A program made the position numbers and the translations under genes. 64,000 nucleotides of DNA from positions 4,154,001 to 4,218,000 of the forward strand of contig NZ_CP036319.1 in the NCBI RefSeq assembly GCF_007752935.1, in the 5' to 3' direction. The notes below the pieces were generated by a model, which saw only the letters and a program-made list of their open reading frames with translations, was not told where the DNA came from and ran no database searches. This DNA is from Crateriforma conspicua (GTDB lineage Bacteria; Planctomycetota; Planctomycetia; Pirellulales; Pirellulaceae). Position 1 is the first letter of the stretch. Every line of letters starts with the position of its first letter. Shown here piece after piece: positions 10,508 to 53,030 of this stretch.

Positions 10508-13500
10508 AATCGCCGGAACGATTGTCGGCGATTGCGTGAGGTGGCATGCGATCGCATCACCTGCGCGGCGGCATCTTGGTCGGCCAGCGTCGGGGGATAG
10601 GATTTCATATGACGAAAGGGCAACGGGTCGGCGGATTGACCGGCCAGCGTGTTCAAGTCAGCGTCCTTATCCCAACCGACACAATGCAAGACAAAATCAC
10701 GCACATATCCGTCGGGCACCGGCGAATCGGGAACCTTAAACGTTAATCGAATTTCATCGCCGCCGCTGATCACCACCATCTTATCGTCCCATTGGGACAG
10801 CATGTCCGACACATCACCGGGTCCGGTCAACGATCCTTGCAGAGGTGGCCAACGCGGATCGGCGTCCGCAATGTGATAGTCATAGGTTTCGGGCTGTTGT
10901 AGTGATGTACGGATGCGACGTGAAAAACCGCGATAGCCGACCTCCGCGGTGTCCATCGTCAAGTCGTGAACGACCAAAGCGTCATCGCCACGACGGTTCG
11001 TGAATTTTGCGGCGTCCCAGTAGATTTGGGCTGATGTTCGAATCCGCAACCGAGGATCTTCGGGCACCAACGCATCGGTCACGTCCACCACAATCGTTTT
11101 CGTTTTCCCGCCCGGAAATCCCATTGATGCGATCGCTGGTCGCCAGCCCGGCATTTTGGTTTCTGCCGCATCGCCGTCGGGAACCCAAACTCCGGGGAAC
11201 TCGATCGGTGGCATTTCATCGTTCTGGTCGATCTGAATGTTCAGCGAAGTGTCGGTCGGCAAAATCCATCCGGTCAAAACCATGTACACCGCTTCACCGG
11301 CGTCGCGACGCTGCAACGCCTGATCGGGTACCGTCAATTCGATCCAGTGCGGCGGACACAGACCCTGAACAATGCGACGATCAAAGCCTTGGACGTATCG
11401 CCCATCGACGTCGGCCAACCGATCCGCGACATCGTTCCCACGGGTGTCCCGCGCCGCCACAGCCGGTTGCATGTCGGCCTGATCAAACGCATAGATGGTC
11501 GGCTGGGCGATCGATGGCGGTCCGACCTTTTCGTTGGTCTCGATCTGGACGCCGGGCGGGTGATCCACGGCGGTGAAGGCGACGTGATCAAAGTAAGCGA
11601 TTTCCCAAAGCTCTTCCGTCAGTCGCAAGTGATACCGACCGTCCTTTTCCGCCACGAAACGGCCGTCCACTTTCAAGTATTCCCAAGGCCGATCCTTGGC
11701 GACGACACCGGCGGCCACCTGTAATCCCAACGGTGCCGCCCATAAACAGTCGGTCACGAAAGCAAACTTTTCACCGTCCCACGCATACAGGTAGGGACAA
11801 GAGCCCTTCAGCGTCTGTTCTTCTTCCACCAACGTGTCAACGGCCGGTGAACGGGTCGTCTGGGTCAACCCGTTGGGAAAGATGATCCGCAGCGAATCGG
11901 CTCGGTCGATTCCGTCCAAACCGAAGTGCGTCATCGGGCTGGTGATGACTTTGGAACGATAATGCGGCCCGAAACGAAGTTCCAACGTCGACCCGATCGC
12001 ATAGTGATTGACACGGCCGCTGGCGGCATTGTTGTCGTCAATCCCTTTCATGCGTACTTGCAAGTAATGGGCATCGTTTTCGGTGGTGTTCATGCCCAAG
12101 ACGATGCCGCGCTGGTCAACGCCGCAACGATCGATGCGTCCGTTGTTGTCAAAGTCGGCGGCATGCCAGACATCGCCGACCATGCCGTCACCTTGCACCG
12201 CCTTGGTCGCCCCAAAACCATCGGACGTCAAATGCGTGCACTTCAGCGAACCGTCGTCGGTGGCATGCAACAATTCGCCGAAGGAATCATTGTCGAAATC
12301 GACCAGCAGGCCGTTGATCATCGGGCCATCGTTCTGGGAAACCGAATCGACGGTCCACATGCCCGCGTCAGCGGTTTGAGACCAAACGATTTGGCCACCT
12401 GTTTTGCCGGAAACCACCAAGTCCCATGAAACATTTCCGTCGACGTCATCGACGAAGACACGCTGGGCATCGGCCATCGCGGGAGCACCCGACAGTGCAC
12501 GGTACCGAAATTGCAAATGCAACAAATTTTCCAGCAATCCAATGGTCCCCGAGCCTTCTTCCACCGCGACGATGTCCAAGTCCAAGTCGCGATCGATATC
12601 AACGATGGCCAAGTCGACCATCGTGCCGGTCGCCGGCGCTTCGACCTCAAAGAAACGCCGCGTCCCTCGGTTGACGAACAGACGCAAGCCATCGTTTCGT
12701 GTGGCGACAACCAGATCCAAATCCCCGTCGCCTTCCAAGTCACCGGCGACGACTTTGACGACATCACGAACGTCCTCCAGCCCCGTCGCCGCATCCACCG
12801 CAAACAACCGCCGATCGTCCGCCGTCGTGTCACGACCGTCCATCCCGAACAATCGGATCCCTTCGTCGCCGTAAACGACCAAGGTGGGAACCACGTTGTG
12901 ACGCAGACCGACCGAAAAATCGGGCGTCGCCGTGGCATCCGGATCCGCCGGCGGCAATACCTTGACCTTGTCCGGTGCGGCACGATCCACCATGAACAAG
13001 TCCGTCGCAATCATCCCCGCGACGTTGATTCCGGCTGCATCATCGGCGATCCTTTTAAAGTCGCCACTGTCGCTTTGTCGCCACAGCGTGATTTCGTTCT
13101 GATCCGAAACGGAAACCAAATCGGGTCGCAAATTGACGTTCAAATCGACGGGAATCACCGACCTCGCATCGGTCGAATCATCGATGACGACATGTCGGAA
13201 CGAAAGTGTCGCATCGAATGCTTGCACCGGAGATTCGTCTTGGGCTTCCATGCTCAACTGGCGGATCGTTTCGAAGCTGATCCGATCCAACGGGTGCGGT
13301 GATGCTCGTCGCCGGTCCGCCTTCATCAATTCCGACGCGTTGACCAGGTTGAACCAGATGCCAAAGCCGCGATTGGCCGTCTGCCAATCCTGCTGGGCGA
13401 TGTCATCCGTCATTTGCGTGACCAGCCCGTCAATCGACTCGATCGCGCCACCGGCCCGAGCTTTCATTTCCGGCTGGATGGCTTTCGCCAAGCGTGCCGC

Positions 13501-22226: not shown

Positions 22227-23657
22227 ATGTTGCAAAATCGAATTTGCTTTTGGATCTTCTGCATCGCATTGTCCATTACGACGCAGTTGATCCTGCATGG
22301 CCCCACACGGTTGACCGCGGCTGACACAACCACGGACATCGCCCCCACGTCGGATCGGCCGAATCTGGTTTTTGTTTTGGCCGATGACTTGGGCTACGGC
22401 GATCTTGGATGCTATGGTCGCAAAGACATCCAAACCCCACGGCTCGACCAGATGGCAGCCGATGGGGTCAGGTTCACCGCACACTACGCCAACGGCGCGG
22501 AATGCTCGCCGACCCGCGCGGCATTCTTGACCGGTCGCTATCAACAATGGATCGGCGGACTGGAATGCGCGATAGGTACGGGAAACGTCGGCCGCTATGA
22601 CGACGCCATTCGCCTGCGCGACACCCACGATCTGGGACTTCCCGTTTCAATCCCGACCTTGCCGGCCCAGTTGAAATCCGCCGGATACGAAACGGCGATT
22701 TTCGGAAAATGGCACCTGGGTTATGAACCAAAGTTCGCGCCCCACCTGCACGGCTTTGACCACACGTATTATTGCATCGGTGGTGAAATGGACTATTTCC
22801 ATTACACCGACAACGTTGCCGGATACAACCTTTTTCGTGATGGCAAACCGATCCGTGACGAGGGATATTTCACAGACTTGATCACCGACGAAGCGGTCAA
22901 GTTCATCAACGGCGGACACGAACGTCCCTATTTTTTGTATCTGCCATACACCTGCCCGCATTCGCCATTCCAAGGTCCGGATGACCGACAAACGCATCCT
23001 TTGCCCCTAGATTCGCCGTTATGGAAACAGGGCAGCGCACCGCCCGATGTTTATCGCGCGATGATCCAGCGGATGGACCAACAGCTCGGACGTGTCCTCG
23101 ATTCCGTCGACGCAAACACGTTGGTCATCTTTGCCAGTGACAACGGCGGAACCAAGAGCGCCAGAAACGATCCGTATCGCGGGATTAAGGGCAGCACCTT
23201 TGAAGGCGGTATCCGCGTTCCGGCGATCGCCTATTGGCCCGGCAAACTTCCAGCCGGCACGGTGTGCGACGTTCCAACGCTGACGTTCGATTGGACACGA
23301 ACGTTTTCCGATCTGGCCCAAGCCGACTTCCCCGAGTCGCACCAACTGGAAGGCGTCAACGTGATGGACATTCTTGACGGCGAACATCCCGATCGCGTGC
23401 TGTATTGGCGAAAGCCACGCGGTGAATCGATTTGGAAAGGTGTTCGAGACGGCGATTGGAAGTATGTCGTCGACCGTCGCGGTGACCGCGAAAAAACCTA
23501 CCTTTTCCAATTGGCGGACGACGAATCGGAAAGTCAAAACCTGATCGACCAGTATCCCGACACGGCCAAGCGATTGCGTGCGTTATACGATTCCTGGGAA
23601 TCGACCACGCGTCGCAATCGACGTGGACGCCCCGATGCCAAGACCGCGACGGAGTGA
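22227..23657 (+). CDS. S1 family sulfatase
   Basis: This 476-aa exported enzyme has an N-terminal signal peptide (about residues 1-32). It has the S1 metal-binding start NLVFVLADDLGYGDLGCYG and the formylglycine motif C-S-P-T-R around residue 92, embedded in ECSPTRAAFLTGRY. FGKWHLGY and FASDNGGTKS are the other conserved active-site blocks. It would hydrolyse a sulfate ester after maturation by a formylglycine-generating enzyme, which is not encoded in the window. The substrate is not predictable by eye. It stands apart from the main sulfatase/GH cluster, facing the two-component system convergently with only 32 bp between stop codons. Confidence 0.92.
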   Translation: MLQNRICFWIFCIALSITTQLILHGPTRLTAADTTTDIAPTSDRPNLVFVLADDLGYGDLGCYGRKDIQTPRLDQMAADGVRFTAHYANGAECSPTRAAFLTGRYQQWIGGLECAIGTGNVGRYDDAIRLRDTHDLGLPVSIPTLPAQLKSAGYETAIFGKWHLGYEPKFAPHLHGFDHTYYCIGGEMDYFHYTDNVAGYNLFRDGKPIRDEGYFTDLITDEAVKFINGGHERPYFLYLPYTCPHSPFQGPDDRQTHPLPLDSPLWKQGSAPPDVYRAMIQRMDQQLGRVLDSVDANTLVIFASDNGGTKSARNDPYRGIKGSTFEGGIRVPAIAYWPGKLPAGTVCDVPTLTFDWTRTFSDLAQADFPESHQLEGVNVMDILDGEHPDRVLYWRKPRGESIWKGVRDGDWKYVVDRRGDREKTYLFQLADDESESQNLIDQYPDTAKRLRALYDSWESTTRRNRRGRPDAKTATE

Positions 23658-23689: not shown

Positions 23690-25057
23690 CTAGTGCAATC
23701 CATAGCGGTTCATCTTGTAGTGCAAGGTCCGCACGCTGACACCAAGCAATTTGGCCGTTCGTTCACGGTGGAAATCGTTGACCGCCAGGGCGGATTGAAT
23801 CGCCGACCTTTCGGCGGCTTCGGTGACCTCCGCCAGCGTCACCGGTTCGGAAAGCCCTGGTGACGTCGCCGCTTGCAAATCGGCGGGCAGGTGGTTCGCT
23901 TCGATCGTATCGTTGGCGACGGTGACAACCAGCCGCTCGATCACATTGCGAAGCTGGCGTACGTTTCCGGGCCAACTGGACTGGACCAACAGGGTCATCG
24001 CCGAATCATGAATCGTCTTGGCGGGACGACGATGTCGGGCACAGAAATGTTCCAGGAAGTGGTCGGCTAACAAAGGAATGTCTTCCCGCCGCTGACGTAA
24101 TGGCGGGACTTCGATCGGCACGATGTTCAAACGATAAAACAGGTCTTCGCGAAACTCGCCGTCATCGACCATCTGCTGGATGTCACGATTTGTTGCCGAC
24201 AAAATTCGCGCATCGGACTCCAAGACTTCTTCTCCGCCGACTCGCGCAAAGTGTCCCGTTTCCAACACACGCAACAAATCGACCTGACTCTTGGCCGGAA
24301 TCTCGGTGATTTCGTCCAAGAACAGCGTTCCGCCGGTGGACTGTTCAAAGCACCCAGGTTTCTGACGCGAAGCGCCGGTGAAAGCGCCCTGTTCGTGGCC
24401 AAACAATTCGCTTTCCAAAAGGGTTTCGGGCAGCGCGCCCAGGTTCACTGCAATGAAACGTCCGCCTGACCGATTGCTAAGGTCGTGAACGGCCCGCGCG
24501 ATCAACTCTTTTCCCGTACCGCTTTCGCCACGAATTAAGACGGTCGCATCGGTGTCGGCCACTTGGCGAATCTGTGTCAACACGTCTTGCAGTGCGCGAC
24601 AATTCCCCACGATCCCCGATACTTCACCCGCTTCGGCCAAGCGGTCACGCAATTCCCGATTTTCCGATTGCAGCCGATGGTGTTCGCGGGCCTTGGTGAT
24701 TTGTTGGCGGATCAGGTTCAGATCGACCGGTTTGGTGATGAAGTCGAAGGCGCCGCGTCGCATCGCATCAACCGCCGTTTCAACCGTTCCATGGGCGGTG
24801 ATCACGATCGCCGTCGTGCCGGGTTTTCGTTGTTGCACCAACGACACGAGTTCCAAACCGTCGCGATCACCCGGCAAACGAACATCCGCGATCACCAATT
24901 GGAAATCGCCCGCATCAAATTTGTCCAGCGCCTCGTTGACCGTGCCGGCCGTATCAATGTGCGTGGCTTCCTTTTCCAAACCTCGCGCCAGGCCCGACCG
25001 AATGTTCGGTTCGTCATCGACGATCAATACTTGAAATTCATCTTCCATGACGTTCAC
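23690..25057 (-). CDS. Sigma-54-dependent NtrC-family response regulator
   Basis: The 455-aa protein has three parts. A receiver domain (1-120) has an acidic pair in LIVDDEPN, phosphoacceptor D58 in VIADVRLPG and the Lys in ITKPVDL. A central AAA+ domain has Walker A GESGTGKE near residue 180, an intact sigma-54 contact loop GAFTGA and Walker B GGTLFLDEI. A C-terminal Fis-type helix-turn-helix includes ERTAKLLGVSVRTLHYKMN. All elements needed to activate sigma-54 RNA polymerase are present. It overlaps the upstream kinase gene by 4 bp, so they form one unit. The divergent operon beginning at 27021 has a consensus sigma-54 promoter, which makes it the best candidate target. An internal ATG at 25048 is an alternative start. 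Confidence 0.93.
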   Translation of the reverse strand: MNVMEDEFQVLIVDDEPNIRSGLARGLEKEATHIDTAGTVNEALDKFDAGDFQLVIADVRLPGDRDGLELVSLVQQRKPGTTAIVITAHGTVETAVDAMRRGAFDFITKPVDLNLIRQQITKAREHHRLQSENRELRDRLAEAGEVSGIVGNCRALQDVLTQIRQVADTDATVLIRGESGTGKELIARAVHDLSNRSGGRFIAVNLGALPETLLESELFGHEQGAFTGASRQKPGCFEQSTGGTLFLDEITEIPAKSQVDLLRVLETGHFARVGGEEVLESDARILSATNRDIQQMVDDGEFREDLFYRLNIVPIEVPPLRQRREDIPLLADHFLEHFCARHRRPAKTIHDSAMTLLVQSSWPGNVRQLRNVIERLVVTVANDTIEANHLPADLQAATSPGLSEPVTLAEVTEAAERSAIQSALAVNDFHRERTAKLLGVSVRTLHYKMNRYGLH

Positions 25058-26445
25058 TCTTGATTGTCAAACTCGGAACCGATTGGCAGGGTGATTTCGA
25101 AGGTGGTGCCCCCCGAACCGGAATGAAAATGCAGACTGCCTTCATGCTGGCGAATGATCTTGTCGCAAAAGGCGAGCCCCAGTCCGTTCCCCGAACCCTT
25201 GGTTGTGAAATAGGCATCAAAAACCTTTTCGCTCAGTTCGTCGGGAATACCGGTCCCGGAATCGACCACGTTGATCTTCACTGTGTCGGAGGTTGTACTG
25301 CCGTGGTTGTCGATGGCCTGGACCGACAGATGGCCACCGTCGGGCATCGCTTCCAATGCATTCATCAACAAGTTCAACAAGACCTGTTCCAACCGGACCG
25401 GATCCAGCATCACTTCCGGCAAATCATTCTCGGGACAGCGCACTTCGACGACCACTCTCTGTTTTTCTGCCGTCGGTCGGATCAAGTCGACTTGACGATG
25501 GATCAACTGTTTCAAATCGACCGGCTGCAGATTCAAACGATCGATGGACGCGAAATCACGAAAGACCTCCAGCACACCACCGATTCGAACCACTTCGCTG
25601 CGGATCACACGCAGCATTTGTCGCACATCATCCGTTTCGTCTTTCCCATCCAATTGTTCTTCCAACAGTTGGACGTGTAGCGACAGTGCCGCCAAAGGGT
25701 TTTTGATCTCATGATGCAACCCAGCCGCCAGTGACCCCAAACCCATGTATCGTTCCATCCGTCGCACCCGTTCTTCGATCATGATGCGATCGGTCACGTC
25801 GCGCAACTGGATCACATAGCCGATTTCCTGGTCATCGATATCGCACAACGTTTGACAGAATCCCTGCAGCACCAGGTCGTCGTCACGGATCGTCGTTTCA
25901 AAATCGTCCGACTGTTTGCCGCCTTCTCGGTCCTCTCGTCCTTGACGAAACTCGTCCAGCGGCACCCATGGCGCCAGGTCACGTAAAGACCGTCCGACGG
26001 GTTCACTGGGAGGGTCCAGTAATTCCAATCCACGACGATTCATACTGGTGACTCGGCCGTCACGGTCCGTCGTGATCACCGCCTGATCGATGCTGCTTAG
26101 AATGTCGCCGGCCAACGCTTTAAGGTCACGCAGGCTTCGCAACGACGAACGATACGCCCGTGACAGCAACACCACGGCGATCCCGGTCACGACAAGGTTC
26201 AACACGACCAAGATGGTCAGTCGAAATTGCCAGCGTAGTTCCCCGGCCAAGACCTGGGCCGATTCGCGGCCGTCGCGTGGCAATTGGCCGATTAAGTCTT
26301 CGACAATTTGCTGTTCACGCAGAAAGTCCACCATCACCCAAATGGTGATCGCCAGCGCAGCGGCACTACCCAGCAGCAGACCGATCACGGCCAGCCGGTA
26401 CGTTTTTTCGTTCTCTTCGGATCGTGCGCGAAACATCGGGTGCAA
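25054..26445 (-). CDS. Membrane sensor histidine kinase (NtrB-like)
   Basis: This 463-aa kinase has two membrane segments (about residues 18-41 and 76-97) enclosing a short periplasmic loop of about 35 residues. A PAS domain follows (about 110-230; LSSIDQAVITTDRDGRVTSMNRRGLELL). The HisKA domain has the phospho-accepting His near residue 244 in HHEIKNPLAAL. The HATPase domain has NLLMNALEAMP (N box), DSGTGIP (G1) and GSGNGLGLAF (G2). The tiny periplasmic loop suggests that sensing is in the membrane or through the PAS domain. The gene is cotranscribed with the NtrC-type regulator (4-bp overlap) and divergent from the dab operon. Signal unknown; inorganic carbon or pH-related cues are an inference from context only. 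Confidence 0.92.
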   Translation of the reverse strand: MHPMFRARSEENEKTYRLAVIGLLLGSAAALAITIWVMVDFLREQQIVEDLIGQLPRDGRESAQVLAGELRWQFRLTILVVLNLVVTGIAVVLLSRAYRSSLRSLRDLKALAGDILSSIDQAVITTDRDGRVTSMNRRGLELLDPPSEPVGRSLRDLAPWVPLDEFRQGREDREGGKQSDDFETTIRDDDLVLQGFCQTLCDIDDQEIGYVIQLRDVTDRIMIEERVRRMERYMGLGSLAAGLHHEIKNPLAALSLHVQLLEEQLDGKDETDDVRQMLRVIRSEVVRIGGVLEVFRDFASIDRLNLQPVDLKQLIHRQVDLIRPTAEKQRVVVEVRCPENDLPEVMLDPVRLEQVLLNLLMNALEAMPDGGHLSVQAIDNHGSTTSDTVKINVVDSGTGIPDELSEKVFDAYFTTKGSGNGLGLAFCDKIIRQHEGSLHFHSGSGGTTFEITLPIGSEFDNQE

Positions 26446-26924: not shown

Positions 26925-26939
26925 TGGCACGACGGTTGC
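26925..26939 (+). promoter_or_regulatory. Sigma-54 (-24/-12) promoter of the dab operon
   Basis: TGGCACGACGGTTGC matches the RpoN consensus TGGCACGRNNNTTGC at every defined position, with the invariant GG (26926-26927) and GC (26938-26939) 10 bp apart. Transcription should begin near 26951, about 70 nt before the dabA start used here. Confidence 0.75.
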
Positions 26940-27020: not shown

Positions 27021-30000
27021 ATGAACATGCCCGCTTTGGAAATGGACGCCGCGATTGGTCGTTCCACACCACCGCATGATCCGCTGACATCGCTGCGTCA
27101 ACAGATCGAACACGCCGCACACCTGCTGCCATCGCAAGGCCCGATCACGGTCTTCGTGCACCACAACACACTGCATGCTTTCGAAGATTTGGATTTTGAT
27201 GGTGGTGTTCAAGCCGGCGGACGCACGTTTGGATGCCAAGCGTATCTTCCCGAAGACCGATATCGAACGATGTTGGAAGAAGGTCGGATCCGCGTCGAAG
27301 ACCTCGAAGCGGTCTTGCACGAAGACCTGGAAGACGAAGCGGACCGATTGGTTTCTGTGTTCTGCACCCGCTATGCATTGCGTCTGTCCATGATGCAGTT
27401 TCCTCTGCATGCCGGGTCCACGCACGAACTGCGTTGGGTGGTCGCCGAAACCGATGCCCTGCGACGCTTTCGTGACGAAGTTTCGCCAGCGGTTCGTGAA
27501 GAAATGCTGACCGACACCCGCGCGGCCGTCCAGCAACGTATTCAAAAGCCATCCCCCATGCGGGACACGATGGATGAAGTGCTTCAGCAATTTGATTCGT
27601 CCAAGAATCAATCATGGAGCGACCGTCGCTGGGAGGCTTTCGTTCTGAATTACCTGTGGCGTGTCTGTTGCGAAGGCGTTCGCATCGCGGATCCGCCTGT
27701 CGAAACGATGGACGCACACAGCGGAGTGTTCGAACAAAGGATTCGACACCGCGACGTGCTGATCCAGACGGGTGCCGACGACGCTGACGTCCCGGTACAC
27801 GAAACGCTGATTCGATTTTGCGCGGCCTTTTTGGACCAGGGATTCGCAGCGTGGAACCTGCCCCATCGCAGCCAAGGGTTCTATCGCTGTTTCTTGTCCC
27901 ATCACGTTGATGGGCCGGCACCGACGCGTTGGCTGCGATCGGTGCAACGTGAATGCCGGCGACTCTCAGATCATCACGTTCAACCGTTGCAATCGATCCG
28001 CGAATCGTTGCAACTATTGGGCGTTGAAGAATCCGAACAGGAACCGTTCATCACGCAAACGCTGTTGGCATTGCGGGGTTGGTCGGGCATGGTTTGGCAA
28101 ATGGAAACCAATGCCGAATGGACACCCCATCCCGCACCACCGGGAAGTCTGGTGGAGTTTCTGGCGATTCGTCTGATGCTCGATCGTATCGCCATTGCTG
28201 AAGTTGCACGCAATCTTTCGGGCCATCACGTTCCGCTGAACAAACTACGTCCGACTTTTCGGCGTGACGACACAGCCGCACCGGCCAATCATTTTGAACA
28301 GCGTGCCTACACCGTCTTCCAGCTGGCCCAGGTCTTGGGGTGGCGTCCCCGAGATCTGGAAAACCTGGCACCCCAACAGTGGAACGCTCTACTGGCAGAG
28401 ATTGAGTCGTTTCCGGCGTTGGAACGACGACGCATCTATCATCGCGCGTTTGAACGCAAGTATCGCAATGAAACGCTGGACGCCGTCATCGCGCACAGCC
28501 GACGGCCCAATCATCGGTCGAATCAACGCCCAGTGTTTCAGATCGTTTGTTGTCTGGATGAACGCGAAGAATCGTTTCGGCGTCATCTGGAGGAAGTTCA
28601 ACCGGATTGCGAAACGTTTGGGATTGCGGGCTTCTTTGGTGTCGCCATGTATTATCGGGGTGCAGCCGACGCCCACTACACGCCACTGTGTCCGGTCAAC
28701 GTCAAACCCGATCACTTCGTCGTCGAAACGCCGGTCTATTCGGCGGTGGAAGCGGAACGTCGTCGCGCCGACGCACGTCGGACTTTGGGTCACGCCACCC
28801 ATCGCGCACACCTGGGCTCGCGTTCTTTTCTGGGCGGTGCGTTGACGGGCATCTTCGGGTCAATCGCCGCGGTACCTTTGGTCGCTCGGATCATGTTTCC
28901 GCGAACCACGGCGCAAATCCGTCGCTGGTTCGGCTCCATCGTGCGAACCCAGTCGACCGAACTGTGTTTGGAAAGATTGCAACCGGATCCAGGATCAGAC
29001 AACGGCCATATCGGCTACAGCGTCGAAGAAATGGCCGGCATCGTTGAAGGTGGTCTGAGGGCCCTCGGGCTTGCCAACCCTGACTTGTTATCCGAATTGG
29101 TGGTCATCTGTGGCCACGGTTCGGCCAGTCTGAACAACCCACACGAAGCCGCCCATGACTGCGGCGCATGTGGCGGTGGTCGCGGCGGCCCCAACGCCCG
29201 CGCATTCGCCCAGATGGCCAACGATGTACGTGTGCGTTCCCGCTTGGCCGAACGTGGTCTGACCATCCCGGATTCGACCTTCTTTATCGGTGGCTATCAC
29301 AACACATGTGACGACACCATGTCTTGGTATGACCTGGATCGCGTACCGCTTGTCCAACGCAAACGGTTCGAAGCAGCCAAAGCCGATATCGACGAAGCAC
29401 GAAAACGCAGTGCCCACGAACGATGCCGGCGTTTCGAATCGGCCGGTGATTCGTTGGACTTTGATGAAGCCCTGCGACACGTCGAAGGACGCGCCGAAGA
29501 CCTGTCTCAAACACGACCGGAATACGGCCACGCGACCAATGCGTTGTGTTTCGTCGGCCGACGTGAATGGAGTCGCGGATTGTTCTTGGACCGCCGCGCG
29601 TTTTTGACGTCCTATGACCCGACACAAGATGACGATCGCAGTTCCATTCTGGAACAGATGCTGCAAGCGGTCATCCCAGTCTGTGCCGGGATCAACCTGG
29701 AATACTATTTCTCCTACGTGGATCCGATCGGCTACGGATGCGGCACCAAGCTTCCACACAACATCACGTCCTTGCTGGGTGTGATGGACGGAGCCGAAAG
29801 CGATCTGCGGCCCGGTTTGCCCTGGCAGATGGTCGAAATTCACGAACCGGTTCGTCTGTTGTTCGTGATCGAAACCACGCCACAAGCGATGAAACGAATC
29901 ATCGATGACAACGAAGCAATCGCGAGATTGGTCAAAGGCGGCTGGGTGCAACTGGCCATCTTCGATCCTGATTCGGGCCGCATCCGACGCTGGTTCAAAG

Positions 30001-30143
30001 ACGACTTTGTGCTTTACGCACCACACGAGCGAGAAATCCCAGCGGTGAATTCTTCTCCTGACTGGTACGCCGGAAAGCGCGAACACTTGGGATTCGCATC
30101 CATTCTGTCGGCAAGCGCCGCCCAACCAGGAGACGTGGCATGA
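27021..30143 (+). CDS. dabA: DabA-like inorganic carbon transporter subunit (DUF2309)
   Basis: This roughly 1040-aa protein belongs to the DUF2309/DabA family, the cytoplasmic, beta-carbonic-anhydrase-like subunit of the DAB bicarbonate/CO2 uptake complex. The four active-site residues of the family are visible: Cys and Asp in VCCLDERE (about residue 510), His in VICGHGSAS (about 697) and Cys in [11 protein letters not shown] (about 712). The N-terminus ([32 protein letters not shown]) is typical. The frame opens at 26904, before the predicted transcription start, so that start is unlikely; 27021 (MNMPALEMD) is used, and 26985 (MDRRSFG) is a possible alternative with AGGG upstream. The stop overlaps the next start by 4 bp. 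It presumably couples ion flux through its membrane partners to one-way CO2 hydration. Confidence 0.9.
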
Positions 30144-31531
30144 CACTGGATCAATGCTTCTTTGCGCTCGGATTGATCGTCGTGATCAGTCCCGCGGTTC
30201 TGTTGGCGGTGCTGGCCGTCACATCATTGCTGGATCGCACGATCAGCGAACGATCGTCGGCGAAGTTGACGGAAGCCTCCGTCGTCGTTGGCTTGGTAGC
30301 GATCGTCGCGATCTTGGTACTCATGCTGGGAACCGGTCGTCGACACGTTCCCATCGAACTGGGTAACTGGGTCGTCATTCCCCAGCAACACTTTCATTTT
30401 CACCTGAAGTTCGTCTTTGACCGCCTGTCGGTCCCATTCACGATACTTTCCTTCGTCCTGTGCGGCATCATCAGTGCTTTTGCAAGTCGCTATCTGCACC
30501 GCGAACCGGGATACAACCGATTCTTTGTTTTGTTCAGTGTGTTTCTGCTGGGCATGGTTTTGTCCTCGCTTGCCGGAACCATCGAGACGTTGTTTTTCGG
30601 TTGGGAATTGGTCGGCCTGTCTTCCGCGCTGCTGGTCGCCTATTTCCACGAACGCACCAACCCGGTCCGAAACGGACAGCGTGTCTGGAGCATCTATCGC
30701 ATTTCAGACGCCGCATTCCTGATCGCCGCGTTGACGCTGCACCATTTGACCGGTGCCGGTGACTTTGACGCACTGATGGGAACCGGCGTCTGGCCCGAAG
30801 GCCACGTTTCGATCACTCAATCGCATGCGTTGTTCGTCGGTGCTTTGTTGCTGTTGGCGGCGATGGGCAAGTCCGCATTGGTGCCATTTTCTGGCTGGTT
30901 ACCCCGCGCGATGGAAGGCCCCACCCCGTCAAGCGCCATCTTCTATGGCGCATTGTCGGTGCACTTGGGTGCGTACCTTTTGCTTCGTGTCGGTCCGCTG
31001 TTGGAAGCATCCACGTTGCTGCAGATAGCCGTTGTCTTCGTTGGTCTGATCTCCGCCATTTTTGGAACACTGACCGCGCGAGTTCAAACCGACATCAAGA
31101 GTGCACTCGCATTCGCTTCGCTGACGCAAGTCGGCATCATCGTTGTCGAGATCGGTTGTGGTCTTCGGTATCTGGCTTTGGTCCACATCATCGGTCATGC
31201 CTGCCTGCGGACACTTCAACTGCTGCGGGCTCCAACGCTGTTGCACGATTACCACACGTTGGAAAACGCGATCGGCGGACACTTGCAACGCAACGAAACA
31301 ATACTGGCACGATGGTTGCCGACGCGTCTTCGCGCGGGTCTGTATGCCACCGCGATCGAGCGTGGTTACTTGGACGGATCAATAGGCGACATGGTGGTTC
31401 GGCCTTTCACGCGTCTATTTCGCTGGTGCGACAACTTGGAACGGCGTTGGACGAACCTTCTTTCGGGCGGCCAGTCGCGAGAATCCGATGACGTTCGTCC
31501 GCATGTCGAATCGCTGGAGGAATTCGTCTGA
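30140..31531 (+). CDS. dabB: DabB-like proton-conducting membrane subunit (NuoL-like)
   Basis: This 463-aa polytopic protein belongs to the NADH-quinone oxidoreductase subunit L/Mrp antiporter family and resembles DabB. The buried Glu is in [14 protein letters not shown] (about residue 155). The channel Lys is in [31 protein letters not shown] (about residue 243), and the [12 protein letters not shown] variant in place of HAATMV is typical of Dab partners. It is shorter than many NuoL proteins and lacks the long lateral helix. It starts four bases inside dabA, so equal synthesis is expected. It likely supplies proton or sodium flux that energises DabA. The C-terminal ~70 residues are polar and cytoplasmic. 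Confidence 0.87.
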
Positions 31532-33057
31532 TGCAAGAATTACATTTGCCATGGATGGAACTATCGATTGTGATCCCAATCCTGGGCGCGATCATCGTTT
31601 CTCGTCTGCGAGACTCCGCGATCGCTCGGATCGCCTGCTTGATCACATGCAGCCTGACGTTGGCTTGTGCCACGGGCGAATGGATCGACTTCGTTCGCCT
31701 GGGAACCTTCGAAGCCCACGATCACTGGGATTTGATCGAGACGATCTTTCATCAAGACGTCTTTGTCATCGATGAATTGAACGCACCGCTTTTGCCACTG
31801 GCCGCGCTGCTGTGTTTATTGACGGCGTTGTCGACGCTGCGTACCAAAGCCAATCGGTTTTCCTTCAACGCAATGTTGGCGTCAGAAGCCATCTTGATGG
31901 CGACCCTTAGTTGCCGAAACGCGTTGGGCATCGTTGGACTGTTGATCGCGGCAGTCGTCCCCGTCTGGTTGGAGTTGCGTCAGCGAGGTCGATGCACGCG
32001 AGTCTTCACCATTCACATGTCGCTGTTCGCGGCACTGTTGCTGTGCGGGCAGTGGATGGTTGCCGCCGGCGCGGTGTTTATCGGTGGGGCACTACTGACC
32101 GTCGCCGCACTGCTACGAACCGGAATCGTTCCCCTGCACTGCTGGATGACGGACCTGTTCGAAAAGGCCACCTTGGGCACCGCGTTGCTGTTCGTCACGC
32201 CCATGACCGGTGCGTATGCGGTGATGCGACTGGTGCTTCCCATCGCACCGGACTGGGCGTTGCAAAGCATTGCGGTTGTTTCGCTGATCACGGCCGTCTA
32301 TGCGGGTTGCATGGCGTTGGTCCAGCATGAAGCCCGTCGCTTCTTCTGCTACTTGCTGCTCAGCCAATCCTCGTTGGTTTTGGTCGGCCTGGAAATCGCC
32401 ACACCGATCGGTTTGACCGGCGCGTTGTGTGTTTGGATATCCGTTGGATTGTCGCTGGGCGGTTTCGGATTGACGTTGCGAAGCGTCGAAGCCCGAGTGG
32501 GACGCATCTCTCTGGACGAATTTCACGGGCTGTACGAACACATGCCCACCCTTGCCGCCCTGTTTCTTCTGACCGGTCTGGCATCGATCGGATTCCCCGG
32601 AACCATCGGGTTCATCGGCATTGAACTGTTGGTCGAAAGCGCGGTCGAAGTCTATCCATGGATCGGAATGACTGTGGTGCTGGCAGCCGCCCTCAATGGC
32701 ATCGCGATACTGCAAGCCTACTTTCGAATTTTCACCGGCCATCGGCACATGGCAACGTTTTCCTTGCGTGCACGCCGATCCGAAAAGATTGCCGTTTTCG
32801 TACTGTCCTTTTTGATCATCTTCGGCGGCCTGTATCCCCAATGGAGCGTAGCGTCACGCTACCACGCCGCCATCGAACTGATTCGACAACGCACCGCCGC
32901 TCTTGGAAGTGGTTCCGATCAGCCCGGACACGCCGACCACCAAACGAACACCAAATCTGCGATTCCAAACCAAACCACAGACGCCACCAAAGCTCCCATC
33001 ACCAACATCGCCGCGGCCACGGCCCAAGAATCTTCGAAGACCGAAAATGAGCGATAA
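31531..33057 (+). CDS. Second proton-channel-like membrane subunit (NuoM/N-like)
   Basis: The 508-aa product has at least twelve hydrophobic segments and belongs to the same complex I antiporter-like superfamily. The recognisable core is [28 protein letters not shown] (about residues 190-217), the counterpart of the K-x-P-x-H-x-W-L-P motif, followed by [29 protein letters not shown]. The usual channel Lys before VPLH is not present (Arg-Thr-Gly instead) and no WEL-type Glu motif is evident, so its proton path may be altered. It shares one base with the previous stop codon. Standard DAB systems have one such subunit, so this is an additional component. The C-terminal ~60 residues are a Thr/Pro/Asn-rich tail. 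Confidence 0.8.
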
Positions 33058-35062
33058 CAACACTCCTGCCGAATCGCCCGAATCCCATGCGATACCACGC
33101 GGCGACGCGTCGGGCTTTGTGAAGTATTTCAAGCACGACTTTTTGTCCGGCTTGCTGGTCTTTCTGATCGCATTGCCGCTGTGCTTGGGCATCTCACTGG
33201 CTTGTGGCTATCCGCCCATCGCCGGGATCTTCACTGCCATCATCGGTTCGATCTTAACCACGTTCATCAGCAACAGCGAACTGACGATCAAAGGTCCCGC
33301 GGCTGGTCTGATTGTGATCGCGATCGGATGCATCGAAGACTTTGGCGGCGACGGAATGACCGGCGGATGGACGGACGCTGATATCACGGCCTATCAAGCA
33401 GCCCTTGCCGTTGGCGTCGCCGCCGCGGTGATCCAGATTCTCTTTGGGCTGTTTCGCGGAGGCATCTTGGGTGAATTTTTCCCGATCTCCGCGGTACACG
33501 GAATGCTTGCCGCCATCGGCGTGATCATCATCATCAAACAGTTCCCCGTGGCATTGGGTGTCTCCGCCGGCGGCGAACCTTTGGAAATGCTCAGGGAAAT
33601 TCCCCACTACGTTGCCGAAGCCAACCCGGCGATCGCGGCCATCGGGATGACCAGCATTCTGATCATGTTTTTATGGCCACTGGCCGGACAACGTGTCGGT
33701 CTTTTGAAGAAGATCCCGTCGCCGATGATTGTCCTGCTGGTCACGGTTCCGATGGGCTTGATGTTCGACCTATTGCACGAACATTCCTACACGCTTCAAG
33801 GGCATCAGTACCAGCTCGGCGAACAGTATTTGGTCAAGATGCCCGAACGAATTTTCGGGATGTTCGATGACATCACCGCGCCTGACTTCAACGCCCTGAC
33901 GCAGGGCAAGGCTTGGAAATGGGTGATGATGTTTTTCATCATCGGAAGCCTGGAATCCTTGCTTAGTGCCAAGGCGATCGACTTGTTGGATCCTTGGAAA
34001 CGAAAGACCAACATGAACCGTGACTTGGTCGCCGTTGGGATCGGAAACTTGGGTGCGTCCATGGTCGGCGGACTTCCGATGATCTCCGAAATCGTGCGTT
34101 CCAAAGCGAACATCGATAACGGTGCACGCACGCGATTTGCCGATATGTGGCATGGGATCTTTCTGCTCGCATGCGTGGCACTGATTCCAACGGTGTTGCA
34201 TGAAATCCCACTCGCCGCCCTGGCTGGGATGCTGGTTTACACCGGATACCGACTGGCACACCCGGCCGAATTTGTGCACGTCTGGCGAATCGGAAAAGAA
34301 CAGCTCGCGATCTTTGTCACCACGCTAATTGTCGTCTTGGCGACCGATTTGCTGATCGGCGTCGCTGCTGGAATCCTGTTGAAGCTGATCATTCACGTTG
34401 CCAATGGCGTTCCTTTGAAAAGCCTGTTCAAGCCTTTCATCGAAGTCCAAGAATTCGACGACAACACCAGCCTGATCGTTGCCAAAGAATCGGCCGTCTT
34501 TAGCAACTGGATCCCGTTTCGTCGCCAAATCGAACAGATCGGATTGGTCCAGAAACGCAACCTGATCATCGACGTGTCCGACACAAAACTGGTCGATCAC
34601 AGCGTGATGGAAAAGCTGGAAGAGATGGAACGGGATTTCCAGCAGGAAGGCCTGCAATTCCATATTCGGGGTTTGTCGCAGATGAAGCCGCTGGCGGCCA
34701 GCCCGCAGTCGGCACGCAAAGGCGGTCTTTCCACAATGCGAAGGGTGACCGTGGTCGCTGATCATGATCTGGAATCACGACTGGTCGATCGCTTCGTCGA
34801 ACTGGGCGCCACCGGTTTCACGTCAACACCTTGCAGCGGAGCCGGACGCCATCGGCTGCGCTGTGGGGACGGGCCGTCCGAATCACAGGTCCGCATCGAA
34901 GTGGTGGTGACGCCGGAAACCGGTGATGACGTCCTGCGGTTCCTGCGCACCGATGTGTTCCCCAGCCACAGCGTTGCGGTTTGGTGCGAAGACGTCGATG
35001 TGGTTCGTCGCGACCATTTCGATTCCTCCGTCGCCGCTGCTGTATCCGCCACGCCTGTCTAG
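33047..35062 (+). CDS. SulP anion (bicarbonate?) transporter fused to STAS and PII-like domains
   Basis: This 671-aa protein has a SulP/SLC26 membrane domain (about residues 30-450; [25 protein letters not shown] near the start, [15 protein letters not shown] and [23 protein letters not shown] later). A STAS domain follows (about 467-545; [20 protein letters not shown]). A C-terminal domain (about 565-650) reads like a PII-like protein: [26 protein letters not shown], a loop, then [19 protein letters not shown] and a final strand [18 protein letters not shown]-like SbtB and CPII proteins regulate bicarbonate transporters by binding adenine nucleotides. BicA, a cyanobacterial bicarbonate importer, is a SulP protein. 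The gene overlaps the previous one by 11 bp and ends the dab operon. Bicarbonate as substrate is inferred from context; the PII-like call is by pattern and needs a structure check. Confidence 0.8.
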
Positions 35063-35141: not shown

Positions 35142-35936
35142 ATGAACCCCTTGCGTCTGATTTGCTTTTCATCCCTGGTGACAGCGGCGATGGCTTGGTT
35201 TCCCAAGATTCCCGCGGATGACACCATCGGTCGGCCCAAGAATCTGCCGTCGGTCAGCCAGCAGTTGATTGACCTGGGAGCCGGGAACGTACGCCAGATC
35301 AATGGCGAACTTTCCTACGTGCACTTGAAGGGTTCGCGGTTCACCGATGATGCCGCCGGATTGCTGGCCGGCCAACGTTCCCTGGTTTTCCTTTCTCTGG
35401 CACAGACGCCGATCACCGACGCAACCCTACGCATTGTCTGTGACCTTGACCAACTGAAATGGCTGTTTCTGGACCACACGAAAATCACCGACCAAGCGGC
35501 GGCGGGGCTGGCGAAACTTTCGAATCTCCGCACGCTGTCACTGGCGAGATGTGGCGTGACGGACAAAACGTTTACCCACGTCTCTTGGCCTCGCCTGCAC
35601 ACGCTGGATCTGTCGCAATCCCGCATCAGCGACACGACCGTCGGACGCCTTTCTGGACACCAAGCGATTCAGCATTTGAATCTAAGCCGCACCGCGGTAA
35701 CGGATCGTTGCATGAACGACCTAGTCACCATGCCGAAAATCACCCGCTTGAACCTGGCCGGGACCAAGATCACCGACTCTGGATTCGCCAAGCTACAGAC
35801 GCTCGGCAACCTTCGTGAAGTGGACGTGACGGGGACACAAGTGACCGCGTCGGCAATCCTGGGTTTCAGTGCCCAGCATCCCGAATGCCTGGTCCATGGA
35901 CCGGAACTGGCAATCGATAGCCTTGCGCACCATTAG
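35142..35936 (+). CDS. Exported leucine-rich-repeat protein
   Basis: The 264-aa product has an N-terminal hydrophobic leader (MNPLRLICFSSLVTAAMAW) and about seven LRR units of 23-24 residues with the pattern L-x-x-L-x-L-x-x-T-x-I-T-D, for example LKWLFLDHTKITDQAAAGLAKL and ITRLNLAGTKITDSGFAKLQTL. This cysteine-poor, ITD-containing repeat resembles the LRR proteins abundant in Planctomycetes. It is expected to be a binding protein outside the cytoplasm; the partner is unknown. It lies 79 bp after the SulP gene on the same strand. It could be cotranscribed, but nothing else ties it to that operon. Confidence 0.8.
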   Translation: MNPLRLICFSSLVTAAMAWFPKIPADDTIGRPKNLPSVSQQLIDLGAGNVRQINGELSYVHLKGSRFTDDAAGLLAGQRSLVFLSLAQTPITDATLRIVCDLDQLKWLFLDHTKITDQAAAGLAKLSNLRTLSLARCGVTDKTFTHVSWPRLHTLDLSQSRISDTTVGRLSGHQAIQHLNLSRTAVTDRCMNDLVTMPKITRLNLAGTKITDSGFAKLQTLGNLREVDVTGTQVTASAILGFSAQHPECLVHGPELAIDSLAHH

Positions 35937-36285: not shown

Positions 36286-39200
36286 ATGACGAAAAATCTT
36301 CAACGCTCATCCGGCGACACGACGCACTGTGGCTGTGCTTCATCCGCGGACTGCGGTCCGACACCACTACCCCGCCGTCGCCTGATCCAAGCCGCCGGCT
36401 TGAACGCCGCACTTTTGCTTTCAGGGCGCGGCAATGTCATGGCGGGACCTTTCGCTGCGAACGATTTTGATCCGGTCATTCCCGCGGACAAGAAGCTTAG
36501 CGAGGATTGGATCGCCAGTTTGTACGACCGCGGCAATCCGTTGTCAGCATCCGGCGAAGACCTTCGGTTCATCGGAATGCCGATCAATGGCATCTGCACC
36601 GGACAAGTCTATTTGGGCGGCGACGGAAGGTTGTGGTACTGGAATCTGGACGGCCATCGCGACCGAAAACAGATTGGTGCCGGGCCACGCTTTACCGACC
36701 CGGACACGTTCCAATCGCCGATGGACCAGGGGTTTGCCATCGACGTTCGCTCCGACGATTCGGCGACAACGTTCACGTTGGATTCCAATGGTTTCCATGA
36801 CGTGGTCTTCACCAACCGCTATCCGATGGCCAACGTCACGTATGCCGACAACGCATGTCCGATCAAAGTCGAATTGGATGCGTACACGCCATACATTCCT
36901 TTGAATCGCGATGATTCCAGCTTTCCCGTCATCGTGATGCGATACACGCTGCGCAATCAATCCAGTTCAAATCAAGAAGTCTCCATCGCCGGATGGATCG
37001 AAAACCTGTCGAACTTTCGCAGCGGAAAAGGACGTCAAGGACGCAGGTTCAGTCGGTTTACTGAGCGAGACGGTTTGTCAGCCGTCGAATGCTGGGCCGG
37101 TTCCATTCCGGATGATGGAGCCGAAGAACAAGTTGACGTCTTCGCGGATTTCGAAGACGGCGATTACAGCGATTGGAAAGTCGAAGGAGACGCATTTGGT
37201 AATGGCCCGGCAACCGGTCCGCGCACCATCCAAAAATTGTCCGGCTTTGACGGAAAAGGCCTGGTCAATTCATGGACCGGTTCCGACAAACCGCAAGGTA
37301 AGTTGACGTCACCCGTTTTCACGATTCAAAAACCGTTCATCAACTTCTTGATCGGCGGCGGTAACAACACAAAATCATTGGGAATGCACCTGTGGGTCGA
37401 CGGACGAAAGGTCCGATCGGCATCGGGCAATCGGTCCGATGCGATGACATGGGCCAGTTGGGACGTTAAAGAATTAGCGGGCAAGACGGCCCATCTGGAG
37501 ATTGTCGATGCATCATCCAGCGGATGGGGACACATCGATATCGACCAGATCGTCTTTTCGACCAAACCGGCAAGTGGAAACTCCGATACGCCCTTGGAAC
37601 GAGCGACCGATTTTGGATCGATCGCATTAGGGTTGCTGAGCAGCGAACCGGCAGAATTCGTGGACATCCAACGCTCTGCCACCGGTTCGACGGATCTCTT
37701 CAGTCGAACACATTCCAAAGTCGTCGATGGCGACACGTTCCAACGCCCGCTGAGTGACCGAGCGTTTGCATCGCTGGGCAGGACCACAAAGCTTGGCCCC
37801 GGCGAAAACGCCGTCGTAACCTTCACGCTCTCCTGGCGTTTTCCCAATGCCAATTATGTCACCAAGTTTGGTCGGAGTCCCGGTGATCACGACATCAACG
37901 ATTACTCCACGCGTTGGCCGACATCCGTCGACTCAGCTGCCAATGTCGCGGTGCGACAGGCGGAACTGACCGACGCCTCCCAAACTTGGACAGATACCTG
38001 GTACGACTCCACGTTACCCTATTGGTTTTTGGAGCGAACCCTGATCCCACTAAATTGCATGCAGACGCAGGTTGCGGAACGTCTGGCATTGCAAGACGGC
38101 ATGTACAACTTGGACGAAGGCGTCAACTGCTGTCCCGGTAACTGCACCCACGTCTGGCAGTACGCGCAAGGATTAGCCCGCATTTTCCCAGTCATTGAAC
38201 GCGAATGTCGTGACAAGGTGGAGTACGGGAAAGGATTTCGTGCCAGCGACGGTGCCATCAATTTCCGTCACAGCATCGGCGAATTCCGTGACGCCATCGA
38301 TGGTCAGTGCGGCACCATTCTGCGTGTCTTACGCGAAAGCCAAATGACAACCGACGACCGGTTCCTAGAAAGCATTTGGGACCGCACACGCCAATCGATG
38401 GAACATGTGATCCGCAAATGGGACAAGGATGAAAACGGATTGCTGTCGGGCGCCCAGCACAACACGTTGGATGAACCTTGGTTCGGCCAAGTCCATTGGT
38501 TGATCAACTTGTACCACGCTGCCTTGAAAGCATCTGCGTCCATGGCGCGGCAAATGAATCAGCCCGCCGTTGCCGATCGATATGAACGTATCGTGGCCAA
38601 CGGCGCGCCGGCGATGGTCGACATGTTGTGGAATGAGGACTTCGGGTACTTCATTCACAATCCGGGCCCCGGCGACGATGAAAAGCATGGATCGGTCAAC
38701 GGTTGTCACATCGATCAAGTGCTGGGCGAATTCTGGCTCAGAAACGTTGGCCTTGATCCGGTGCTACCGCAAGACAAAACGCGTCGCGCCTTGGAATCGT
38801 TGTGGACGTACAACTTTTCGCCCAACGTGGGCGATTACCGCAAAGTCATGACCGCGGGTCGATGGTACGCCGTCGAAGGCAACGCGGGACTGATCATGTG
38901 CTCGTTTCCACACGGAAAGATCGAAGCTAAAAGTGGCAAGAAGAATTATGCGGGCTACCTGAACGAGTGCATGACCGGCTTCGAATGGCAGGTCGCCGCG
39001 CACATGATCTGGGAAGGCATGTTGGAAAAGGGTTTGGCGATCGGCAAGGCGATTTACGACCGATACCAACCCAAGGATCGCAACCCCTACAACGAAATCG
39101 AATGTAGCGATCACTATGCCCGCGCCATGTCCAGTTACAGCGCGTTCATGGCAGTTTGTGGTTATCAGTATGATGGCCCCGCAGGCCGACTGGCTTTCGG

Positions 39201-39504
39201 CCCCAAAATGCAACATGACAATTTTCGTGCCGCATTCACCACGGCCGAAGGCTGGGGCCGATTCACGCAAACCGTTCAAGACGCCCGTCAAGAAAATGGC
39301 ATCGAACTGCGGTACGGAAAACTCCGGCTTCAAAAACTCGCCCTCGACCGAACTCCCGAAACCAAACCGGGCCAGGCAACCGCAACGTTGGACGGGCGAA
39401 CAATCCCCGCGGTGTTCAAAGCCGATGGTACCCGTCTGGTCGCGACGTTCCCCGGCGGCTTGAACATCACCAGCGGCCAAACTCTGCGAGTGAAACATGC
39501 GTAA
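36286..39504 (+). CDS. GH116-like glycoside hydrolase with inserted beta-sandwich module
   Basis: This 1072-aa protein has a twin-arginine-like leader ([20 protein letters not shown], about residues 26-47) and then the GH116 (DUF608/GBA2-type) two-domain architecture: [27 protein letters not shown] in the N-domain, [22 protein letters not shown] and [12 protein letters not shown] in the catalytic (alpha/alpha)6 barrel. The Asp of HIDQ fits the acid/base position known from GH116. Residues about 284-426 are an insert absent from the paralogue at 43431. They begin [12 protein letters not shown], contain FLIGGGNN and end [19 protein letters not shown], which resembles the beta-sandwich module attached to GH32 enzymes. 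Substrate likely a beta-glucoside or beta-xyloside within a sulfated glycan. It overlaps the next gene by 8 bp. Confidence 0.82.
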   Translation: [1072 protein letters not shown]

Positions 39505-52830: not shown

Positions 52831-53030
52831 CCGGCGGCTAGCGCCTTGCCGCTCACAAAAAATGAAGTGCAACCCGGATCGCGAAAGGCGGGCGTGTTCT
52901 GGCACACGCAGGGCAGCGGCAGGGCGCATTTTCATGTGCCGCTATGCGGGAAAGCGGCTGCCTCGATTTCTGAGCGGCATGGCGCTAGCCGCCGGTTTGA
53001 TGGTAGTGAGTTAAAACGTTGCGCAACGAA
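52831..53030 (+). repeat. 200-bp repeat unit, copy 1
   Basis: The unit starts CCGGCGGCTAGCGCCTTGCC and is followed immediately by copy 2. It carries a 25-bp arm at 52831-52855 whose reverse complement lies at 52971-52995 (one mismatch). Between the arms is the hsdR Walker A segment, here with GSGR in place of GSGK. Confidence 0.85.

Follow-up and report, generated by a model that had tools for sequence, protein, structure and literature searches.

What kind of inorganic carbon system is encoded where a DabA-type protein, two complex I-like membrane proteins and a SulP transporter are read from one planctomycete operon? The question is raised by a four-gene locus of Crateriforma conspicua, which occupies positions 27,021 to 35,062 of the 64,000-nucleotide stretch analysed here (contig NZ_CP036319.1, positions 4,154,001 to 4,218,000, forward strand; henceforth the window). 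The locus is probably an inorganic-carbon acquisition operon, in which a three-subunit DAB and a bicarbonate-carrying SulP protein gated by a PII-like domain would act under sigma54 control and by a modified mechanism. The strongest new facts are a class-wide residue pattern in the DAB proteins and the sigma54 signal. A preliminary description of this DNA, made from the sequence alone, had mentioned neither the PII-like domain of SulP nor the sigma54 and two-component neighbourhood, nor a DAB class differing from DAB2.

Operon anatomy

The genes of the operon and the DabA sites discussed below are, in window coordinates:
27021-30143, forward strand: dabA, class II zinc- and carbonic anhydrase-like subunit, 1040 residues; PF10070, 799 bits; aligned to the solved DabA2 chain 9rd0_A
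28551-28565, forward strand: Cys511-x-Asp513-x-Arg515 of DabA, corresponding to DabA2 Cys351, Asp353 and Arg355
28818-28898, forward strand: hydrophobic "finger" segment of DabA, residues 600-626, without the Glu444 of DabA2
29115-29162, forward strand: His699 ... Cys714 of DabA, corresponding to the DabA2 zinc ligands His524 and Cys539
29529-29531, forward strand: His837 of DabA, in the position of DabA2 Leu658 (canonical Gln/His site of beta-carbonic anhydrases)
30140-31531, forward strand: NuoL-like DabB (gene 2), truncated after about transmembrane helix 11 (TM11), 463 residues; PF00361, 141 bits, and PF00662, 39 bits
31531-33057, forward strand: NuoM-like third subunit (gene 3), 508 residues; PF00361, 90 bits
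33047-35062, forward strand: sulP (gene 4), anion transporter that has a weak STAS-like region and ends in a PII-like domain, 671 residues; PF00916, 197 bits

As the preliminary description had it, the open reading frame (ORF) calls overlap by 4 bp (dabA/NuoL-like), 1 bp (NuoL-like/NuoM-like) and 11 bp (NuoM-like/sulP), and overlaps and Pfam matches agree in placing a DAB-type system and a SulP protein in one operon. Its claim of a complete zinc and carbonic anhydrase site is borne out by alignment to the solved DabA2, in which Cys511, Asp513, Arg515, His699 and Cys714 all find their counterparts. The Pfam cut-offs are exceeded by DabA (PF10070, 799 versus 25 bits), gene 2 (PF00361, 141 versus 21.5 bits) and SulP (PF00916, 197 versus 23.2 bits). 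With DabA above its cut-off, a PF00361 membrane gene beside it and the zinc site complete, the locus belongs to the DAB/DAC family. NCBIfam ranks NuoL first for gene 2 and NuoM first for gene 3. Gene 2 covers only positions 8-356 of the 615-position NuoL model, and therefore the last NuoL helices are missing. A GTG at 26904 is a possible alternative dabA start upstream of the ATG at 27021; the ATG is favoured because a sigma54-like site sits at 26925-26939.

A second class of DAB proteins

The five zinc and carbonic anhydrase residues (Cys, Asp, Arg, His, Cys) are present in 117 of 117 DabA rows longer than 700 residues and in all 21 rows, the window's among them, of a family set compiled later. 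Rows of 700 residues or fewer were left out, and with them both halves of a class II dabA that is broken by a TGA into two open frames (L047:7361-10516, identical to L109). Three duplicates were removed from the synteny count, the 99-row tree and the sigma54 count described below, and were kept in the residue counts. Two genomes (L067:7264-8985 and L068:7031-8752) encode a 573-residue DabA-like protein that aligns with the Pfam model only at its two ends (about 1-280 and 570-747) and looks as though it had lost the middle part.

A FastTree analysis of 99 DabA rows sets class I (18 rows) apart from class II (81 rows) with full local support. Class I holds five plasmid copies (Nitrobacter, Mycolicibacterium, Azospirillum, Haloarcula and Staphylococcus) and 13 study rows including L003, and class II holds 70 rows of the three-gene group (DabA, NuoL-like and NuoM-like genes) and 11 rows with fused chains. 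A second tree of 100 rows, which includes the printed part of DabA2 (44% of the columns), assigns DabA2 to class I with the same full local support; long branches are flagged in both trees.

The two classes differ at several residues that are important in DAB2. At the column of DabA2 Glu444, Glu is found in 11 of 13 class I rows (Gly in the other two) and is absent from every class II row, some of which have an acid at an end of the finger segment. The 658 site is Leu throughout class I (13/13), His in 86 and Asn in 7 of the 93 three-gene-group rows, and His in all 11 fused rows, while the site of DabA Ser356 is Glu in 102 of 104 class II rows (93 three-gene-group and 11 fused). In gene 2 of the window, Glu156, Tyr269 and Arg357 occupy the DabB2 sites Ile151, His260 and Lys347. 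Class II DabB rows have Glu at 151 (92/92), Tyr at 260 (92/92) and Arg at 347 (91/91 lettered rows), and class I has each in 0 of 10; these DabB classes were assigned by a neighbouring motif, GPTPSS or PTPV, which 7 of 109 rows do not fit, among them L095, L139 and L147, all with the three-gene layout. The same class II pattern recurs in 21 of 21 rows of the later family set, window included, and the five plasmid references carry class I residues at DabA 444 and 658 and at DabB 260 and 347. The chains also differ in length, since the three-gene DabB of class II ends about 106 residues past the Lys347 site and that of class I at least 184 (10 rows). Gene 2 is not the full 15-helix NuoL-like DabB that the DAB2 type requires.

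Relative to DAB2 of Halothiobacillus neapolitanus (PDB 9rd0), the operon thus shares the DabA family, the five zinc/active-site residues, the NuoL-like partner and DabB Lys235, Asp185, Ser256, Lys310 and His339. It differs from DAB2 in lacking the finger Glu444, in His at 658 and Glu at 356 of DabA, in Glu151, Tyr260 and Arg347 of DabB and in the absent last DabB helices, and it adds the NuoM-like gene, the sulP-PII gene and the sigma54-like promoter. On these alignments and trees, the DAB of the operon is not of the DAB2 type and represents a separate class II that keeps the zinc site.

The consequences of such changes can be judged from the 2026 DAB2 structure paper (PMC13144422), which proposes that proton flow past the DabA finger glutamate unlocks a latent carbonic anhydrase. 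Replacement of DabA2 Glu444 by Ala or Gln abolishes DAB2 activity, alanine at DabB2 His260 or Lys347 impairs it, and I151E halves the growth yield (PMC13144422). Leu658 is strictly conserved in 150 DabA2 homologues; L658Q gained no activity in vitro, and L658 variants still work in vivo (PMC13144422).

A sigma54 promoter-like site and a divergent two-component pair

The features upstream of the operon are:
26925-26939, forward strand: sigma54 (-24/-12) promoter-like site TGGCACgacggTTGC, about 80 nt 5' of the dabA ATG
25054-26445, reverse strand: PAS-containing sensor histidine kinase (Pfam PAS_4, HisKA, HATPase_c), divergent from the operon and overlapping the regulator gene
23690-25057, reverse strand: NtrC-type response regulator (REC, sigma54 AAA+ and Fis-type helix-turn-helix domains; PF00158, 230 bits, PF00072, PF02954), divergent from the operon

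About 530 nt around each dabA start were scanned for the -24/-12 element, with GG and GC fixed and at most one mismatch, and an equal stretch inside dabA served as the control. A site lies upstream of dabA in 18 of 87 class II three-gene-group rows, compared with 0 of 87 inside dabA and 2.1 expected from dinucleotide shuffles; the 87 rows are defined by three-gene-group DabA, some of their contigs end before the partner genes, and the Schlesneria rows have no recognised partners. The corresponding counts are 0 of 12 for class I and 0 of 11 for the fused group. In a second set, composed of family loci and sharing three loci with the first, the site occurs upstream in 7 of 20 cases and inside dabA in 1 of 20.

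Kinase and regulator homologues lie near dabA in part of the relatives, and 10 of 16 loci with such a neighbour have the site; the 16 were chosen by hand and some have a kinase match only. The same-genus locus L161 repeats the whole arrangement, including kinase, regulator and a perfect sigma54 site. Over the whole window the element with at most two mismatches is found 46 times against 34.6 expected, only mildly above chance, so the weight of the site rests on its place and its conservation. A scan for sigma70 elements gave fewer sites than in shuffled sequence. Together these motif counts make a good case that sigma54 controls the operon in part of the clade, including the window.

Conservation and gene order

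Of the 244 genomes sampled from the phylum, 33 have DabA. A profile of 12 DabA rows matched at least 572 relatives in a genome-contig collection; the best 80 loci were kept, which by their titles are mostly planctomycetes, with a few Verrucomicrobiota and one "Gammaproteobacteria" genome bin. The synteny across planctomycetes that the preliminary description had proposed to check is conserved beyond chance: the block of DabA, NuoL-like and NuoM-like genes occurs in 76 loci, or 75 without the duplicate (L047 = L109). Within the window's family, 38 of 80 genomes have the NuoM-like gene (E <= 1e-40) and 44 of 80 have DabA. The NuoM-like gene lies 1.6-1.8 kb from the dabA match in 36 of the 38, a distance that equals the room of gene 2, and within 1.7 kb of the contig start in the remaining two.

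A same-strand sulP gene adjoins the three-gene DAB in 27 of the 46 loci with 2.5 kb of room on both sides (30 of 76 were left out, and neither L047 nor L109 is among the 46): downstream with a PII-like domain in 13, downstream without a PII match in 8, and upstream in 6. In the family set it stands beside the block in 17 of 20 loci, 15 of them with PII (in L163 after a 0.8 kb gap); these 20 were picked from the 38 positives for contig room and not at random, and L170, L171 and L175 repeat L137, L134 and L100. The same-genus genome L161 is among the loci with sulP beside the block. The operon is therefore real and conserved, and its layout, which the preliminary description had called non-standard, is not unusual among these relatives. 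In 14 loci without sulP, the start of the one following ORF, inspected by eye, is of various kinds; the related L043 and L070 share the same kind.

The NuoM-like third subunit

Glu365 of the NuoM-like subunit (32623-32625) falls in the region of transmembrane helix 12 (TM12). This position is acidic in 75 of the 78 lettered rows, as Glu in 70 and as Asp in 5, and in 21 of 21 rows of the later family set, window included; site 364 beside it is variable. An acid is also seen by eye in the corresponding motif of the 11 fused chains. In the DAB2 structure paper, the position of NuoL Lys399 and Asp400 is said to be filled by DabA2 Glu444 (PMC13144422). In the alignments, the NuoM-type glutamate lies one residue before position 365. 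With a NuoL TM12 motif that we take to be Lys-Asp-Glu, position 365 would meet NuoL Asp400. As Glu365 would then match the residue whose place DabA2 Glu444 takes, the NuoM-like subunit may have taken over the proton gate from DabA, and this is the weakest link of the account.

The AlphaFold model of the linked NuoL-like/NuoM-like pair of L100 has a mean pLDDT (predicted local distance difference test) of 83.6 and a pTM (predicted template modelling score) of 0.86; its alignment had 32 rows, 4 of them linked, and the single rows L054 and L115 stretch over both halves. Among the best 50 of 552 Foldseek matches, NuoM, MrpD and related chains align over about 480-515 columns (target TM score 0.75-0.82), as expected for a complete NuoM-like fold; NuoL chains align over only about 354-381 columns (target TM score about 0.47-0.56), and DabB2 is not among these 50. 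The linked model is support and not proof, since the covalent link forces nearness and complex I was surely in the training data. A natural fusion is seen in L056-L059, whose extended DabB chain matches at its end the C-terminal part of the NuoM-like family (independent E-value 2e-15 to 4e-17); the other fused group matches this part only weakly. In three of these loci (L057, L058 and L059, family f42), two different class II DAB pairs stand back to back in divergent orientation.

It is possible, if doubtful, that the NuoM-like subunit is a mere scaffold, the TM12 acid being a family relic and class II DABs using another proton route or none. At what are presumably the NuoM lysine positions, Met or Leu replaces the TM7 lysine in 70 of 80 lettered rows and Arg the TM8 lysine in 74 of 80, so the N-terminal half of the subunit looks inactive. 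What speaks against a relic is the retention of the acid at 365 in nearly every row beside a variable site 364, and its presence by eye in the fused chains.

SulP and its PII-like domain

The regulatory part of SulP is located as follows:
34736-35014, forward strand: PII-like domain of SulP, residues 564-656; PF00543, E 4.9e-11; nearest solved chain TTHA0516 (2cz4)

Its PF00543 score is above the cut-off (43.3 versus 25 bits). Among solved chains it matches TTHA0516 (2cz4) with E 1.6e-13 and SbtB weakly, with E 0.11. A crude test for the C-terminal CGPxGC redox loop of SbtB, which asked for CG and two or more Cys within the final 40 residues, picked out 0 of 33 PII-like domains. The preliminary description had likened the transporter to BicA-type SulP proteins, a label that is not supported, as it scores 102 bits against a cut-off of 880 for the NCBIfam BicA model NF050096. 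A FastTree analysis of 44 SulP rows assigns the window SulP to one main clade and other SulPs that adjoin the block, L099, L120 and the Verrucomicrobiota set among them, to a different one; the sulP slot has probably been filled more than once, by at least two SulP lineages. A search for plasmid relatives of the window SulP matched 1690 records; four of the 15 listed were opened, one of which was without annotation, and two of the three annotated relatives lie beside a carbonic anhydrase gene (Sphingomonas and Caballeronia, not Methylomagnum). These neighbours favour bicarbonate over sulfate as the likely substrate.

Two other roles for the transporter were weighed. The operon could serve pH and ion homeostasis, with the DAB making bicarbonate and protons and SulP exchanging bicarbonate for another anion, so that cytosolic pH would be trimmed and carboxylases would not be fed. 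The SulP family includes anion exchangers among its solved relatives, Mrp antiporters are related to both DabB and the NuoM-like subunit, and Mps is named after membrane-potential generation (PMC8552792). PII-like regulators of bicarbonate transporters point instead to carbon and energy sensing (PMC13249358, PMC10117731), and homeostasis as the purpose is rather unlikely. The upstream region argues in the same direction, as sigma54/NtrBC-type control is typical of nutrient supply.

Still less probable is that gene 4 encodes a sulfate transporter for a sulfatase-rich planctomycete metabolism that is merely co-transcribed with the DAB. The family name and the best fit to general SulP models agree with this, and a sulfatase gene lies nearby (22227-23657); yet SulP, drawn from two or more lineages and found both upstream and downstream, is the commonest co-directional neighbour of the three-gene DAB seen, and there are the carbonic anhydrase neighbours of its annotated relatives.

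Genome context and neighbouring genes

The same genome holds a second DAB outside the window, of class I (dabA at G000:C1:4395768-4398218; L003:4682-7336, minus strand). Its DabA has 884 residues with the finger Glu and Leu658, and its DabB 579 residues. Two beta-carbonic-anhydrase matches were found, one of them fused to SulP; this 746-residue frame also lies outside the window (G000:C1:6509258-6511399; L150, L153). No match to the RuBisCO large subunit or to phosphoenolpyruvate carboxylase was found in the genome, which has two matches to PYC_OADA (pyruvate/oxaloacetate carboxylase type). Anaplerotic use of bicarbonate is reasonable on these grounds, and the heterotrophic setting suggested in the preliminary description agrees with them.

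The next genes 3' of the operon encode a leucine-rich-repeat protein (35142-35936) and a GH116-type glycosidase (36286-39504) and give no sign of operon membership. Farther along, a 16-base stretch, TGGCACACGCAGGGCA, is present three times within 600 bases (window 52900-53473), which hints at a repeat array.

Relation to other known systems

DAB1 carries an interstitial unnamed PF00361 gene and complements a carbonic anhydrase-free strain (PMC7714395), the extra gene being described elsewhere as a small hypothetical membrane protein (PMC13144422); carbonic anhydrase-deficient E. coli is rescued by DAB2 and DAB1 (PMC13144422, PMC7714395). Comparison with DAB1 was made only through the DAB1-like plasmid locus L154 of Nitrobacter hamburgensis. 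Both have a DabA of about 1040 residues, and the Nitrobacter locus likewise has an extra gene between dabB and dabA and a PII gene next to dabA. It differs in keeping the DabA finger Glu and Leu658 and DabB His260 and Lys347; moreover, its extra protein has 253 residues and by eye no such TM12 acid, its PII protein is free-standing, and no sulP was found in the 20 kb covered. Gene 3 is an extra PF00361-type gene, as in DAB1, and differs from the Nitrobacter protein in length and in TM12. Identity with DAB1 was rejected because the operon does not have the DabA and DabB residues of this DAB1-like locus, with which, and not with DAB1 of H. neapolitanus itself, it was compared.

MpsAB of staphylococci is likewise a DabA/NuoL-like pair that feeds inorganic carbon to a heterotroph (PMC8552792), but it has two genes, and the plasmid copy of S. 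pettenkoferi has class I residues at DabA 444 and 658 and at DabB 260 and 347. BicA and the can-sulP arrangement of Acidithiobacillus ferrooxidans resemble the operon in the SulP family and its pairing with a carbonic anhydrase-like protein (PMC6458275), whereas the operon SulP is far under the BicA cut-off, has a DAB and not a soluble carbonic anhydrase as its partner, and is fused to a PII-like domain. SbtA-SbtB also combines a bicarbonate transporter with a PII-like regulator (PMC13249358, PMC10117731); here the transporter is of another family, the regulator is fused, and the crude test detects no SbtB-like Cys pair near its end. The literature covered, which is partial, contained no report of such an operon from a planctomycete or of a DAB joined to SulP-PII.

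Discussion

The interpretation of the preliminary description survives in part: the operon, the union of DAB and SulP, the synteny and the genome without a RuBisCO large-subunit match stand, and the unusual layout and the BicA-type label do not. Like that description, we infer that the four genes share a function. Most likely the products of the first three genes, DabA, the NuoL-like DabB and the NuoM-like protein, assemble into a single DAB complex, which would hydrate CO2 to bicarbonate in the cytosol in a reaction coupled to ion flow through the membrane arm. With the finger glutamate gone, its role has probably passed to the TM12 acid of the NuoM-like subunit, and His (sometimes Asn) occupies the position of the DabA2 Leu in the active site. 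SulP most likely imports bicarbonate and, by analogy to the gating of SbtA by SbtB, would be gated from inside by its own PII-like domain. One cytosolic bicarbonate pool would then be fed by both, the DAB from CO2 and SulP from bicarbonate, and would serve the pyruvate, acetyl-CoA and carbamoyl-phosphate carboxylations of a heterotroph. A presumed induction signal would act through the divergent kinase/regulator pair, which probably switches the operon on through sigma54.

A more far-reaching proposal is that class II is a second mechanistic solution of the DAB family, with the canonical His in its carbonic anhydrase site, a proton gate on TM12 of the NuoM-like subunit and not on a DabA helix, coupling to ion flow through subunit contacts in place of an inserted finger glutamate, and a PII-gated SulP within a dual-substrate, sigma54-controlled unit that would supply carbon to heterotrophic planctomycetes. 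This proposal is tentative and, as it stands, unlikely; its probability is lowered because rows near DabA2 can lack Glu444.

Several observations weigh against the account given here. The class I rows L033 and L034 have Gly for Glu444 and are among the nearest rows to DabA2 (L034 is 55% identical), which suggests that the finger glutamate is not indispensable even near DAB2. His at 658 alone need not give a free carbonic anhydrase, because L658Q gained no activity in vitro. The AlphaFold model of the natural fusion L057, for which trimmed NuoL-like rows were used in the alignment, reached a mean pLDDT of only 63.5 and a pTM of 0.58, with most of the C-terminal part below 50. The best NCBIfam models for SulP are general SulP and DauA, and its substrate is not readable from the sequence. 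No sulP is adjacent in 19 of the 46 loci, and in two Schlesneria loci (L089 and L093, about 9950-13099) neither DabB nor a NuoM-like or SulP gene was recognised within about 10 kb on either side of the class II dabA, so the parts can occur separately. Most loci are without such a sigma54 site, and the sites, like the kinase/regulator pair, occur only in part of the clade. The need for the operon is not obvious, because the genome has two beta-carbonic-anhydrase matches and a second DAB.

That the system is an ordinary DAB2-type pump whose differences reflect neutral drift is improbable, for in spite of the shared family, the intact zinc site, the in vivo function of DabA2 L658 variants (PMC13144422) and the two Glu444-less rows close to DabA2, the changes are class-wide, those at DabB 260, 347 and 151 are fixed in class II and absent from all 10 class I rows, and substitutions at DabB2 His260, Lys347 and Ile151 and at DabA2 Glu444 harm DAB2 (PMC13144422).

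An inorganic-carbon acquisition operon with a three-subunit class II DAB and a PII-gated SulP, the probable reading of this locus, would bear on the family and on the organism alike. Class II amounts to a natural experiment, in which the finger glutamate, the latent-site Leu and two residues of the channel have been replaced clade-wide and a NuoM-like subunit with a conserved TM12 acid appears. Since both kinds of DAB are encoded in one genome, they can be compared side by side, with the class I copy as a natural internal control. Carbon supply in heterotrophs would also gain a recognisable control logic, that of sigma54 and PII.

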